Assembly: GCA_947493335.1 (NCBI GenBank)
Contig: CANLQO010000002.1
Span: forward strand, 1-64,000
From: an uncultured Paracoccaceae bacterium
GTDB taxonomy: Bacteria; Pseudomonadota; Alphaproteobacteria; Rhodobacterales; Rhodobacteraceae
Direction: 5' to 3'
DNA length: 64,000 bases
Each line of letters opens with the position of its first letter. The first letter of the stretch is position 1. A program made the translations under genes and the position numbers. Shown here in pieces: positions 12,687 to 62,491 of this stretch. The notes beneath the pieces are model-generated. The model was not told where the DNA came from, did not search any database, and saw only the letters and a program-made list of their open reading frames with translations.

Positions 12687-12792
12687 TCTGACGCATTGGG
12701 GGGGTCACCCGTCAAAAGGGGTGCTGCGGGTGACACCATCCGCGCACACCGCTCAGCCCTCAAAACCACCCATGTTTCGCGCGCGAAACGGG

Positions 12793-12886
12793 TTAATGGT
12801 TAACACCGGTCCCTTAACACCGGCGTTTTCGGCTTTCACCAGCACGGGTTGTGTACCGGATGTGTACGGAATGTGCATGCGTTAAC
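12793..12886 (+). repeat. 11-bp-phased TGTG array with TTAAC elements (locus 1)
   Basis: Three TGTG cores start at 12850, 12861 and 12872, exactly 11 bp apart, in the units GTTGTGTACCG, GATGTGTACGG and AATGTGCATGC. TTAAC elements lie 5' of the array (12800-12804, 12814-12818) and GTTAAC follows at 12881-12886. The site is between the convergent ends of rsgA and the phosphatase gene. Closely similar arrays occur at 25281-25350 and 42648-42718. The same gap (12687-12903) also has an 8-bp stem GTCACCCG/CGGGTGAC at 12704-12734, without a T-tract. Confidence 0.6.
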
Positions 12887-23834: not shown

Positions 23835-25232
23835 TTACTCCTTTCGGATAATGCCCGTGACCGCCGCCGCCCCAATGGCCGTCACGATCCAGCCCATGGC
23901 AATCAGCCACCAGCGGATCCACCACAGCCACCAACCCCAGGGGCCCCGCGTTGTTGAAGGTGCCCAGGCCTTTTCCTGCCCCAGTTGGACCAGCGGGATC
24001 ACCAGATCGACGCCGTAATAAAACGCCTCGAACGTCTCATAATCGCGGCCCGCCTGATCCGGCCCGGACCAAACTTCTGCCGGGTTCGCCATCTGATCCG
24101 GCCCGACCGAGACCGCCTGCCAGCCCGGCGACATCAGCACAGGCGCCGCATTGGGCGCAAAATCCCCCGCCTCCCAGGCCTGATGAGCCAGAAATGCACC
24201 AATCAGGATCAACACCAACAATGCCGCGACCGACCGCAACGGCTGATAGCCGTAACCCACCAGCCAACGCTGGGTGTGATCGGCAATCAAGGACCCTGCC
24301 ACCTTGTGGCCCTGCCCGCCCTCACTCCGCCAGCGTCGTCGGGCAAAGGCACGCTGCAGGCGTTCCTTCTCCATCATCACGCGGCGCGCTTCGGCGGTGT
24401 GTCCGGTTTCGCGCATCACATCGGCAAAATGCGCATAAGGATGGGGCCGGAATTCGTCATCGACCACCGCGCCACGCTCTAACCAAGGCAGGCGCATCTC
24501 CATATCGGTCGGGCCGGACAGCCGCTCAAACTGCAGGCCGTCAAACATCAGATCGGGCGTCATCGCCCAGCTTTCCGCATCATCCGCGAGCGAGTTGAAC
24601 CGCGCGCCGGTCAGCCGCACCATGCCGTCGATGCCTGCCAGTTCACGCCAGAAAAACGCCTTGCCCACCACCAGACCCTGCGCATTGAGCGCATCGGCGC
24701 CGGGGTTCAGCAAGGTCGCCCCGTCAAAATCAACCTGCCCCCCGGCCCGTGCACTCATCAGGTTCAGGCCACCCTCGACCGCGACCTCGCGGAACAGCAT
24801 GTCACCCGCAATCTGACTGCCATGCAGATCGACGCCCTTTGGAAAGCGGCTGCGGTTCAGCACCACGGCGGCCACGTGAAACTGCCGCGTCACAAGCGCC
24901 CCTTCAAATTGGCAATCCCGCAGGTGCAGCCGCCCCACGCCTTCGCCAAACGACAGGTTCAGATCCTGCCTGATCCACGCCCCCCGGATCGAAATGCCTT
25001 GCACATCGGTTGGCCACTCGGGGCAACCGCCAAGCACCACGAACCGCAACAGCGACGCGCGGATCATGACCTCTGGATCGGGCGCCTTCGGAACCTTTTC
25101 GCGCAGGGCGGTCACCGCACCGATCCGCGCCATATCCAGCAGGGTCTCTTCAGCGGGGGTCAGCCCACCATCATCACGCAGCTGTTTAAGCTGGGCGTAG
25201 CTGGTGATCTGCGCAAGGTCCGGATACTCCAT
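23835..25232 (-). CDS. Pentapeptide-repeat-like membrane protein
   Basis: A 465-residue protein. After a helical N-terminus, residues 75-260 have a right-handed beta-helix look with irregular five-residue rungs (DLNLSFGEGVGRLHLRDCQF, SRFPKGVDLHGSQIAG, GGLNLMSARAGGQVDFDGAT). A basic linker follows, then a membrane segment near 330-350, a soluble loop and a final Trp-rich pair of segments (WWLWWIRWWLIAMGWIVTAI). Homologues are sometimes named oxidoreductase without evidence. No catalytic motif is visible. The gene's promoter region holds locus 2 of the TGTG arrays, shared with the divergent mnmH. Confidence 0.65.
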   Translation of the reverse strand: MEYPDLAQITSYAQLKQLRDDGGLTPAEETLLDMARIGAVTALREKVPKAPDPEVMIRASLLRFVVLGGCPEWPTDVQGISIRGAWIRQDLNLSFGEGVGRLHLRDCQFEGALVTRQFHVAAVVLNRSRFPKGVDLHGSQIAGDMLFREVAVEGGLNLMSARAGGQVDFDGATLLNPGADALNAQGLVVGKAFFWRELAGIDGMVRLTGARFNSLADDAESWAMTPDLMFDGLQFERLSGPTDMEMRLPWLERGAVVDDEFRPHPYAHFADVMRETGHTAEARRVMMEKERLQRAFARRRWRSEGGQGHKVAGSLIADHTQRWLVGYGYQPLRSVAALLVLILIGAFLAHQAWEAGDFAPNAAPVLMSPGWQAVSVGPDQMANPAEVWSGPDQAGRDYETFEAFYYGVDLVIPLVQLGQEKAWAPSTTRGPWGWWLWWIRWWLIAMGWIVTAIGAAAVTGIIRKE

Positions 25233-25280
25233 CCCCGCAGATTAGATGCCGTCCCACAATGCGCAACACCCACCGCACGG

Positions 25281-25350
25281 TTAACCGTGCTTAACACTTT
25301 GATATGTACACTTTGTGCATCGTTTGTGCACAGGTTGTGAACGGGCTGTG
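25281..25350 (+). repeat. 11-bp-phased TGTG array with TTAAC elements (locus 2)
   Basis: Four TGTG cores start at 25314, 25325, 25336 and 25347, exactly 11 bp apart, in units TTTGTGCATCG, TTTGTGCACAG, GTTGTGAACGG and GCTGTGTCACG. TTAAC occurs at 25281-25285 and 25291-25295 on the 5' side. The array lies between two divergent genes, 47 bp before the mnmH start, and could affect either promoter. It is the most regular of the three loci. Confidence 0.65.
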
Positions 25351-25396
25351 TCACGCCCCCTGTCACCCGCCTTGCCAATAGGTTAAGGCTCCGCTC

Positions 25397-26446
25397 ATGG
25401 CCGAATTCACCGCATTGTCCGCGCTGCTCAACCACGGGTTTGATACCGTGATCGATGTGCGCAGCCCGGCCGAATTCGCCGAAGATCACCTGCCCGGAGC
25501 CATCAACCTGCCCGCGCTGTCAAACGATCAGCGGGCCGAGGTCGGCACAATCCACAAGCAGGTCAGCCCCTTCAAAGCACGCAAAATCGGGGCCGCCCTT
25601 GTGGCGCGCAATGTGGCCGATCACCTGACCGGTCCGCTGGCGGAAAAGCCCGGCGCATGGCGGCCGCTGGTCTATTGCTGGCGGGGCGGTCAGCGCTCGG
25701 GGTCTTTCGCCTCGATCCTGACGCAGATCGGTTGGCGGGCCGAGACGATCAAGGGCGGCTATATGACCTACCGACGGCTGGTCTTTGGAATGCTTTATGA
25801 CACACCGATGCCGCATCGGATCGTGCTTCTGGACGGCAACACCGGCACCGCAAAAACGGATATTTTGCAACGCCTTAGCGCCCGCGACCTGCAGGTTCTG
25901 GACCTTGAAGGCATGGCGGGCCATCGCGGGTCGTTGCTGGGGGCAACCGCTGCCGGGCAGCCCGCGCAGAAGGGTTTTGAAAGTCAGTTGGCGGCGGCGA
26001 TTACAGCGCTTGACCCCGACAAGATCACAGTGGTCGAGGCAGAAAGTTCCAAGATTGGCCAGATCAACCTGCCCAAGCAAATCTGGGCTGCGATGACGAC
26101 GGCACCGCGCCTTGTCATCGACGCCCCCTTGCAGGCCCGCGCGGCCTATCTGACGCAAGCCTATTCGGACGTGATATCGGACCCGGCAGAGCTAAAGAAG
26201 CGCTTGAATCCATTGCGAAATTTGCGCAGCCACGCGGTTGTGGATGGTTGGATTTCCCTTCTGGATCAAGGCGACATGGAGGGGTTGGCGACCGCACTGA
26301 TGCGCGACCATTATGACCCGGCCTATACGCGCAGTCGCAGGATCGATAGCCGCGCGATGCTGGGTGAGGTCGCGGTCGAGACGCTGGATCCAATTGGTCA
26401 GGACAAGGCTGCAGACGACATAGCGAAGCGGCTTAAACAGCTTTGA
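25397..26446 (+). CDS. mnmH: tRNA 2-selenouridine synthase
   Basis: A 349-residue protein (also called SelU/YbbB) that replaces sulfur by selenium in the wobble 2-thiouridine of certain tRNAs, using selenophosphate. The N-terminal rhodanese domain has TVIDVRSPAEFAEDHLPGA and the active Cys94 in YCWRGGQRSG; the C-terminal half contains a P-loop-like LLDGNTGTAKTDIL and binds the geranylated intermediate. It faces selD, which makes the selenophosphate, with the two genes overlapping by 14 bp at their 3' ends. Confidence 0.93.
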   Translation: MAEFTALSALLNHGFDTVIDVRSPAEFAEDHLPGAINLPALSNDQRAEVGTIHKQVSPFKARKIGAALVARNVADHLTGPLAEKPGAWRPLVYCWRGGQRSGSFASILTQIGWRAETIKGGYMTYRRLVFGMLYDTPMPHRIVLLDGNTGTAKTDILQRLSARDLQVLDLEGMAGHRGSLLGATAAGQPAQKGFESQLAAAITALDPDKITVVEAESSKIGQINLPKQIWAAMTTAPRLVIDAPLQARAAYLTQAYSDVISDPAELKKRLNPLRNLRSHAVVDGWISLLDQGDMEGLATALMRDHYDPAYTRSRRIDSRAMLGEVAVETLDPIGQDKAADDIAKRLKQL

Positions 26447-42647: not shown

Positions 42648-42718
42648 CACAGAGCATACACACTTTATGCACAACCGATGCACAAACCATCAGCATGAAA
42701 GCCTGAATTGGCGTTAAC
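42648..42718 (-). repeat. 11-bp-phased TGTG array with a TTAAC element (locus 3)
   Basis: On the minus strand four TGTG cores (CACA on the plus strand at 42648, 42659, 42670 and 42681) are exactly 11 bp apart, within TTTGTGCATCG, GTTGTGCATAA and AGTGTGTATG plus a fourth weaker unit. GTTAAC at 42713-42718 lies on the 5' side in this orientation, as at the other two loci. The array sits between the convergent ends of the universal stress gene and recQ. Confidence 0.65.
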
Positions 42719-61555: not shown

Positions 61556-62178
61556 TGCACAGGCGGGCGTTCTTGGCGGGCGCCGCTTTTGCGGGCCTCG
61601 CGGCCTGTAGCGGTGAGCCGGTCTGGGCCCCGCAAGAGGTGGTTTCGGCCAAGGCCTTTCGCGGCACCGGACCGAAGTCGCTGACACTTTACACCATGAA
61701 GAACACCGGCTCTGGCAATGGCGCACACACCGCGCTGTTGGTGGATGCCAGCCAAAGGGTCATGTTTGACCCCGCAGGCACCTTTGGGCACCCCACGATC
61801 CCAGAGCGCAACGATGTGCTCTTTGGTTTCAGCCCGCAGGTTGAACAATATTACGCGTCTTATCACGCGCGATCCTCTTTCTACATCGTCAGCCAAAAGG
61901 TCATCGTCTCACCACAGGTGGCTGAACGCGCGTTGCAACTGGTGCAGGCCAACGGGCCGGTGGCCAAGGCCAATTGCACCCGCGCCACAAGTGCGATCCT
62001 GCGGCAATTGCCGGGTTTTGGCGGCTTGTCGCAGACCTGGTTTCCCAACAGCCTATCGGATGATTTCGCGCGTTTGCCCGGTGTCGAAACGCGCGAATAC
62101 CGCGAAAATGACAGCGACGACAAAACCCTTGCCGCGCGTCAGGTGGACATGCAGATCAGAGCTGCCCAGTCGCAATAA
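61555..62178 (+). CDS. Putative lipoprotein of unknown function
   Basis: A 207-residue protein with an RR-type signal (MHRRAFLAGAAFAGLAACSG) and a lipobox LAAC at Cys18. The mature part includes TKNTGSGNGAHTALLV-like segments (TMKNTGSGNGAHTALLVDAS) with VMFDPAGTFG and ANCTRATSAILRQLPGF, somewhat like papain-fold NlpC or DUF4105-type cores (His in GAHTALL, Cys in ANCT), though no firm assignment is possible. Its 3' end overlaps azlD by 23 bp. Confidence 0.68.
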   Translation: MHRRAFLAGAAFAGLAACSGEPVWAPQEVVSAKAFRGTGPKSLTLYTMKNTGSGNGAHTALLVDASQRVMFDPAGTFGHPTIPERNDVLFGFSPQVEQYYASYHARSSFYIVSQKVIVSPQVAERALQLVQANGPVAKANCTRATSAILRQLPGFGGLSQTWFPNSLSDDFARLPGVETREYRENDSDDKTLAARQVDMQIRAAQSQ

Positions 62179-62491
62179 GCCCTGCGTAAAGCACCACGAC
62201 CCCGGCGATAATGCCCCAAAGCGCATTGCGCCGCCACCAGCTGACCACCAGCACCGCAAGGATCGCGGCAAGCCGGACCGGCTCTGTCTCGCCCCCCGTT
62301 GCCGCGGGGTAAAGGGCCAGGGGCGCGACCATTCCGGGCAGCACTGCAACCGGCGTAAAACGCAACAGTTTCAGCACCAGCGGCGGCATGGGGCGGTCGC
62401 CGATCAGACCCAGAAAGGAAAACCTGATCAGATATGTGCCGACAGCCAGAACCGCGATAATCAGCCAGATTTCTGCGTTCGAGTAATTCAT
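62156..62491 (-). CDS. AzlD family branched-chain amino acid exporter subunit
   Basis: A 111-residue membrane protein with four helices, the first reading WLIIAVLAVGTYLIRFSFLG. With AzlC it exports branched-chain amino acids or analogues (azaleucine resistance in Bacillus). Its start overlaps the azlC stop by 4 bp. The gene order and partner support the assignment. Confidence 0.88.
   Translation of the reverse strand: MNYSNAEIWLIIAVLAVGTYLIRFSFLGLIGDRPMPPLVLKLLRFTPVAVLPGMVAPLALYPAATGGETEPVRLAAILAVLVVSWWRRNALWGIIAGVVVLYAGLIATGQL

Follow-up and report, generated by a model that had tools for sequence, protein, structure and literature searches.

The four TGTG units that precede mnmH in the 64,000-nucleotide stretch of DNA analyzed here (the window) are one of many instances of a repeated polar chromosomal element, which for the arrays is nearly certain. 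The main feature of the copy at mnmH, one beyond the reach of an earlier note made from the letters alone, is a helically phased tract that continues for about 270 bp past the array and into the gene. We are confident that such a tract is a statistical property of the arrays as a group and is not strong at every locus.

The array at mnmH and its flanks

The TGTG cores begin at 25314, 25325, 25336 and 25347, in steps of exactly 11 bp, with two TTAAC elements on their 5' side; the earlier note had placed all of these correctly. The features of the locus are listed below, "own genome" and "own genus" being those of the window.

23835..25232, reverse strand: divergent neighbor, weakly pentapeptide-repeat-like (PF13576, E=1e-4, under the Pfam cut-off)
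25271..25280, forward strand: CACCGCACGG motif, over-represented near own-genome arrays
25281..25285, forward strand: TTAAC element, at -33 from the first TGTG, the own-genus part of the element (logo peak at -33 to -29)
25291..25295, forward strand: second TTAAC element, at -23 from the first TGTG, 10 bp after the first TTAAC
25303..25313, forward strand: degenerate first unit TATGTACACTT, at position -11 of the array, one turn ahead of the first TGTG
25314..25357, forward strand: four 11-bp TGTG units, TGTGCATCGTT, TGTGCACAGGT, TGTGAACGGGC and TGTGTCACGCC, the polar anchor of the element
25355..25627, forward strand: helically phased tract into mnmH, its AT content oscillating once per 11.34 bp in a phase lock with the array
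25397..26446, forward strand: mnmH, tRNA 2-selenouridine synthase (NF008752, E=1.9e-136), whose 5' end holds the tract

A degenerate unit one turn before the first TGTG occurs in many copies of the array, and logos show conserved bases there, with A at -6 in 0.88-0.93 and T at -11 in 0.69-0.78 of arrays. Conservation within the own genus covers TTAAC around -33, with a per-base identity of 0.69-0.87 across 45 orthologous pairs, and TTAA around -23. The sequence CACCGYRCGG or its reverse complement (CCGYRCGGTG) accompanies some of the 65 own-genome arrays within 100 bp, on the upstream side in 7 cases and on the downstream side in 8, never on both, which amounts to 15 of 130 array sides compared to 6 of 1128 random 100-bp stretches. 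A further array, at locus L363 of genome G130, lies beside a gene whose product looks, by eye, like a pentapeptide-repeat protein, a situation similar to that of the array at 25314.

Two other arrays lie in the window.

12850..12875, forward strand: second array, 3 units, in the convergent gap between rsgA (+) and a phosphatase-like gene (-)
42648..42684, reverse strand: third array, 4 units, in the convergent gap between a universal-stress gene (+) and recQ (-)

The pattern TGTG-N7-TGTG-N7-TGTG has five matches in the window, where shuffles expect 0.01, and these make up the three arrays (12850, forward; 25314 and 25325, forward, one array; 42648 and 42659, reverse, one array). The earlier note had claimed that the arrangement recurs in two other intergenic regions in the same orientation. 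Both recurrences exist, with TTAAC on the same side, though farther off at 12850. Near some arrays we also observed parS-like palindromes (of the TTTCGCG..CGAAA kind), at 12772-12789 of the window and at loci L159 and L170; in strict form they have a match no more than 120 bp away from 2 of the 65 own-genome arrays and from none of 1128 random points.

Copy number and distribution of the arrays

In the whole genome, the three-unit pattern has 38 matches against 1 in a backward-pattern control, and the two-unit pattern TGTGYAYN4TGTG has 101 against 3. Pairs of TGTGYAY at gaps of 0-30 bases gave 98 matches versus 1 in the control; counted by eye, 80 of the 98 were spaced at 11 bp, 11 at 22 bp, 2 at 33 bp and 5 elsewhere. 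The consensus of the unit is TGTGYAYNNNW. The own-genome set used below comprises 65 arrays of this unit, drawn from 100 of the 101 two-unit matches; at least one further own site, C6:119350, lies outside the set. Coincidence, the verdict that the earlier note attached to arrays at chance frequency in shuffled genomes, was not borne out by the shuffled window (5 vs 0.01) or by the reversed-pattern control that took the place of shuffled genomes (38 vs 1). Since there are tens of sites per genome, the replication-initiator (iteron) role that the note had entertained is unlikely.

We scanned 394 genomes of the family, representing 393 genera. At least one strict two-unit match was present in 66, and 11 genomes had at least 20 matches:

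G000, 73; G199, 74; G032, 72; G063, 47; G084, 28; G237, 97
G261, 21; G266, 28; G303, 42; G305, 96; G355, 49

Among the remaining genomes, 6 had 5-13 strict matches and the others 0-4, the reversed control giving 6 matches overall. The matches listed from named genome contigs (at least 118 loci) fall mainly in Rhodobacteraceae and relatives (Actibacterium, Vannielia, Harenicola, Litoreibacter, Pontivivens and others), with matches in Actibacterium atlanticum, Vannielia litorea, Harenicola maris and Pontivivens insulae. We excluded 22 loci that belong by title to other groups and are by eye mostly simple repeats. When one mismatch was allowed, G202, a genome of the own genus with no strict three-unit match, gave 42 matches versus 3 in the control, and G018, which has no strict array, gave 27 versus 1, a hint of a variant unit in the latter. 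The other 19 of 20 array-poor genera gave 0-7 matches against 0-7 in the control. The counts in G202 and G018 indicate that the sequence of the unit drifts, so that strict counts underestimate its spread.

Placement with respect to origin and terminus was considered and set aside. Coarse GC-skew sampling of one contig (G199:C1) places sites near the skew maximum, so that the terminus is not avoided, but their distribution is asymmetric, with 15 of 22 within the first 1.35 Mb. A phage origin was likewise rejected: the 50 viral contigs that carry the pattern show, by eye, mostly unrelated simple repeats. Viral contigs L290, L303, L317 and L327 do hold 11-bp-phased arrays of the TGTGYATAA kind, some of them beside DnaA-box-like TGTGGATAA or TTATCCACA, and these differ from the present element.

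Conservation between genomes

The gap at mnmH carries the element in all six genomes of the genus that were compared, in which MnmH is 72-80% identical to that of the window; the array thus withstood the check on close relatives that the earlier note had proposed. In three other genomes of the own genus, the sites that have one or more flanking genes in common with an own-genome site number 24 of 32 in G198, 6 of 7 in G200 and 17 of 20 in G201 (47 of 59 in total), the G201 figure covering 20 compared sites of at least 29 compiled. Across the 45 orthologous pairs, the best-kept bases include the TGTG cores (partly demanded by the search), the third unit and TTAAC, and spacer positions are no better kept than their surroundings.

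Orthologous arrays differ by gain or loss of entire 11-bp units. This is also seen between G198 and G199, whose two compared loci have 93-97% identity, one pair having further indels. Four sites were found in G199 only; a G198 counterpart was identified for two, the differences consisting of unit gain or loss and point change, with no clean insertion in these two site pairs. Few flanking genes are common between genera, and copies are patchy among other Rhodobacteraceae genera.

A helically phased tract extends from the arrays

On the 3' side of the last TGTG, the AT content of 103 arrays from other genera oscillates, reaching 93% at +13, 17% at +18 and 70% at +23, and continuing. From +8 to +280, the best period is 11.34 bp for 104 other-genera arrays (bootstrap 11.32-11.40) and 11.32 bp for 92 arrays of the own genus (bootstrap 11.28-11.36). 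For 160 less redundant arrays pooled together, the 1% null is exceeded in each of the eight 34-bp windows with starts from +12 to +250, at phases of -30 to -43 degrees, and in none of the four with starts from +284 to +386. Since significance extends from +12 to +283 and is lost thereafter, the tract measures about 272 bp, or 24 turns.

The phase of the tract is locked to the array. With the 65 own-genome arrays counted once each, the phases at +60 to +280 cluster strongly (R=0.561, p=1e-9, phase -50 degrees) compared to the upstream mirror (R=0.083, p=0.64), and other genera gave a similar result with one array per locus (n=102, R=0.574, p=2e-15, phase -43 degrees), a set that still holds several loci from some genomes. 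The lock was present in the 32 own-genome arrays of at least three units (R=0.458, p=0.001) and in the 33 of exactly two (R=0.712, p=5e-8). Random anchors gave R=0.05 (n=493) and single TGTGYAY decoys R=0.197 (p=0.054, n=75). On the mirror side, the pooled 160 arrays show one significant window, 46-79 bp from the array, and a redundant set of 196 arrays (192 usable) a weak lock (R=0.219, p=1e-4), which the own genome taken by itself lacks. The lock is no more than a trend in array-poor genomes, with R=0.37 (p=0.09) for 17 intergenic arrays and R=0.29 (p=0.17) for 21 when four ORF-internal arrays are included. Same-genus sets hold orthologous arrays, and the less redundant tests (65 own, 102 other-genera, 160 pooled, 24 families) are more trustworthy. 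The later other-genera sets are without a Planctomycetes locus and three same-genus loci, which were discarded or reassigned to the own genus, and include 14 additional loci from G355, G237 and G303.

AA/TT and GC/CC oscillate in antiphase, with strand symmetry, an alternation like that of DNA bent round a protein. Most of the tract is genic, with 84-88% coding from +150 onward, and all codon positions carry the phasing (7.6, 8.6 and 11.6 s.d. in the redundant set, the third position being strongest). We compared these stretches with orthologous coding stretches of other genera that have no array within 350 bp (39 pairs, 24 gene families). The projection was 0.005 for the latter and 0.038 with an array (Wilcoxon p=1e-3); phase clustering in the same families was modest with an array (R=0.41, p=0.017) and R=0.12 (p=0.72) without. 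The array-less orthologs being unphased, the phasing goes with the array. Already phased DNA may in part have been chosen as array site, rather than having been shaped by later selection, a course that the phasing of codon positions 1 and 2 leaves possible.

At mnmH, the tract from 25355 to 25627 has an amplitude of 0.157 and a phase of -76 degrees, near the group phase of -48 degrees. The third array has a tract that runs toward lower coordinates (amplitude 0.107, phase -53 degrees), and the tract of the second is unphased (amplitude 0.047, phase +23 degrees). When the 264-bp windows of the 64 kb are ranked at the 11.34-bp period, 25253-25516, with the array inside it, comes second; the strongest, 61954-62217, is array-free. 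Measured against ordinary window DNA, only 14% of the 196 array tracts pass its 99% level and 41% its 90% level, and many array-free windows reach a similar amplitude. What sets the tracts apart is therefore that their phase is locked to the array, rather than how large their amplitude is.

Genomic context of the arrays

The own-genome set of 65 divides into 33 arrays in tandem gaps, 14 in convergent gaps, 9 in divergent gaps and 9 within predicted ORFs. Genes were predicted with a small custom script, and these last nine may include mispredictions. Background gaps of at least 80 bp in the same genome number 48 tandem, 7 convergent and 35 divergent (Fisher test, convergent versus divergent, p=6e-4). 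The 98 loci of other genera, whose Fisher test takes the own-genome gaps as background, comprise 45 tandem, 29 convergent and 9 divergent gaps, with 5 loci inside ORFs and 10 at edges; this set omits 21 loci outside Rhodobacterales (by title) and includes one Planctomycetes locus and three loci from same-genus contigs. In tandem gaps, the strand of the array is indifferent (18 versus 15 in the own genome, 24 versus 21 in other genera), and in 25 of 33 own-genome cases the upstream stop is closer than the downstream start. The neighbors are diverse and unrelated, as judged from 12 flank proteins read by eye and 6 window proteins.

Mapping with GapR-seq in E. coli and yeast, as described in PMC8360656, places positive supercoils downstream of transcribed genes, notably between convergent genes. 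Arrays sit where positive supercoils collect: between genes, near 3' ends and in convergent gaps.

A structured RNA was considered and rejected, mean folding z being -0.15 and -0.46 over 56 sites (RNA parameters). A simple terminator scan found 1 terminator at 56 gene ends in array gaps versus 4 at 57 in other gaps, too few to use. The intergenic sites among 20 loci of array-poor genomes revealed no shared locus that would name a binding protein; two loci there have the pattern inside one homologous gene. We also observed that Lrp-type genes, named by eye, adjoin two arrays, and that at position ~2501 of loci L217 (G198) and L271 (G201) an array lies just past a small predicted gene beside a gyrA-like gene (PF03989 matches).

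Proposed mechanism

From the arrays, their copy number and polarity, the group phasing and its absence from the array-less orthologs tested, the context and the conservation within the genus, we infer a bound protein, the wrapping of DNA, its handedness and a function. The earlier note had suggested that a protein binds cooperatively along one helical face, and our results fit this suggestion, with a possible role in chromosome architecture. The reading that we think probable, if only by a little, is that a putative protein nucleates on the array, in a polar manner, and forms a DNA-wrapping nucleoprotein complex over ~320 bp, which would act as a supercoil sink or boundary. Of its parts, the wrapping of DNA by a nucleated assembly of protein has our moderate confidence, and the supercoil role less.

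The putative protein would nucleate on the polar array and then wrap or polymerize along ~320 bp, with one subunit (or contact) per helical turn, the simplest picture given that the AT oscillation stays in register with the array units. About the first four contacts, on the degenerate unit and the TGTG units, would read TGTGYAY specifically. For the next ~24 contacts, on the TGTG-3' side, a face with AT-rich minor grooves opposite a face with GC-rich ones would suffice, and such shape-only contacts could explain a sequence patterned each 11.34 bp for ~272 bp, even within genes. The DNA would probably be coiled right-handed, with ~142 bp per superhelical turn and about two gyres; the handedness is suggested by a period of 11.34 bp that exceeds the 10.5 bp per turn assumed for B-DNA. 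A right-handed coil would hold positive supercoils. Given sites between genes, near 3' ends and in convergent gaps, the likeliest job of the complex would be that of a topological boundary or supercoil sink, or of a landing platform. The patchy distribution of the arrays is odd for an essential architectural factor.

DnaA, ParR-like proteins and condensin are leads as candidate binders. The iteron-type partition site parC consists of 11-bp direct repeats bound by ParR, and there, as proposed here, repeats occurring once per turn seed a DNA-wrapping protein assembly; unlike the 65 chromosomal arrays, parC is a single site per plasmid beside the partition operon. Low-affinity DnaA-box arrays are built of TTWTNCACA boxes, some of them 2 bp apart, and the DnaA filament is right-handed. 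The present unit shares with them the fixed letters TGTGNA of the reversed box, the head-to-tail order and the 11-bp pitch, and would share the right-handed filament, but C and S replace the TT of the box, and the arrays are patchy and present at tens of non-origin sites. Four loci of ±1.5 kb around dnaA held at most one single unit each and no TTATCCAC. Regions bound by GapR resemble the array sites in their 3' ends, convergent gaps and positive supercoils, whereas the GapR crystal structure described in PMC8360656 is without base-specific contacts and GapR has no array.

Alternative explanations

Gyrase is the known right-handed DNA wrapper, and the alternative that survives best, in our judgment an unlikely one, is that the element serves DNA gyrase as a strong site and corresponds, in Rhodobacteraceae, to BIME-2 of E. 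coli, with the TGTG steps as flexible gate and the GyrA C-terminal domains wrapping the tract. The gyrase sites mapped in E. coli, as described in PMC6379681, have phased G/C with a 10.75-bp period, lie downstream of highly transcribed operons and are over-represented in intergenic BIME-2, and gyrases of several species show a 10-11-bp GC periodicity (PMC12324340). The arrays resemble these sites in kind of location and in phasing: AT/GC alternation at a period above 10.5 bp (11.34 bp here, somewhat longer than 10.75), positions downstream of genes and in intergenic DNA, and many copies. The E. coli motif of PMC6379681 is, however, symmetric, with 130 bp and a 36-bp center between periodic arms, whereas the present tract is one-sided, ~272 bp long, unbroken and array-anchored; the same account gives the E. 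coli motif no specific repeat anchor and builds BIMEs of REP palindromes. Gyrase is also universal and the arrays are patchy. Among the matches listed, PF03989 (GyrA-C) occurs at two loci only in 11 of 11 array-bearing genomes, in ORFs of lengths like gyrA and parC, and a third GyrA-C-like protein was absent from the matches listed for 22 genomes, save for a 369-aa ORF in array-poor G009.

More doubtful again is a mobile or ex-mobile intergenic repeat of the REP or MITE kind, lodged in readily bent DNA at 3' ends, its units being the binding sites of the mover. The arrays are indeed dispersed, intergenic and patchy, they avoid divergent gaps, and at 3 of 30 scanned loci of the REP-associated tyrosine transposase RAYT an array lies within ~0.6 kb of the gene (L390, L393 and L396, in G389, G201 and G091), as does, by coordinates, G199:C1:2174163. 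RAYT is present in all six own-genus genomes. A homologue of the cold-shock-like gene that neighbors an own-genome array was observed at 11 of the 30 RAYT loci and may explain the proximity of RAYT and array. A RAYT/REP origin in particular, which had been prompted by one locus (where Pfam PF01797 fails to recognize the RAYT protein), was rejected, since RAYT (NF047646, E<=0.001) is absent from eight array-rich genera (G032, G063, G084, G237, G261, G266, G303 and G355), whereas 13 of 36 array-poor genomes contain it. The palindrome or hairpin of the REP kind is missing (fold z near 0 over 56 sites), and an inverted pair of flanking motifs, suspected by eye, occurred in its strict form on both sides of 0 of 65 arrays. 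Array positions are kept within the genus, the two G198/G199 site pairs differ by unit gain or loss and point change with no clean insertion, and the phasing is missing in array-less orthologs, all of which argues against a mobile repeat.

It is slightly less probable still that there is no dedicated protein, and that the array and phased AT curvature alone pin plectonemes of supercoiled DNA. A periodicity of about 11 bp is general in bacterial genomes and is commonly taken, as set out in PMC4132750, as the pitch of negatively supercoiled DNA. Against a protein-free element, the strictly kept TGTG.A, letters partly demanded by the search pattern, and the one-sided layout suggest base-specific recognition.

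OmpR/PhoB-type regulators bind 11-bp direct repeats. Repeats ~10-11 bp apart are what such tandem binding calls for, a spacing that the arrays share, and CenR of Rhodobacter sphaeroides, in the same bacterial family, binds a tandem direct repeat about one turn apart (PMC9275681). We nonetheless consider it very improbable that the array is the operator of a transcription regulator for mnmH and the pentapeptide-like gene. A promoter operator was rejected on gene context, with convergent gaps favored, no divergent enrichment and no strand preference in place of a consistently oriented promoter position; at least 65 copies and neighbors that are unrelated where read likewise count against the gene regulator at a divergent promoter that the note had envisaged, and the CenR operator, described in PMC9275681 as TGA-N8-TGA with two half-sites within 100 bp upstream of transcription units, differs from TGTGYAYNNNW.

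Implications

We return to the array as nucleation site of a wrapping complex. It is quite possible, at somewhat short of an even chance in our estimate, that the arrays represent a new class of bacterial chromatin element in some Rhodobacteraceae, in which a polar code between transcription units would seed a right-handed wrapping particle (~28 turns, roughly two gyres in the tract), a helical-phase code would be laid on coding DNA, and the particle would serve as a nucleosome-like sink or boundary for positive supercoils. Among the papers listed from the open PMC library, we saw no prior description of such arrays or tracts.

If true, bacteria would possess a positioned, directional, nucleosome-like wrapping signal, partly written inside genes, at the places where transcription accumulates positive supercoils. 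Whether fixed sites and a dedicated protein insulate neighboring genes topologically becomes a question testable with one DNA fragment. The finding further raises the question of whether chromosome packaging may act as a constraint on coding sequence.
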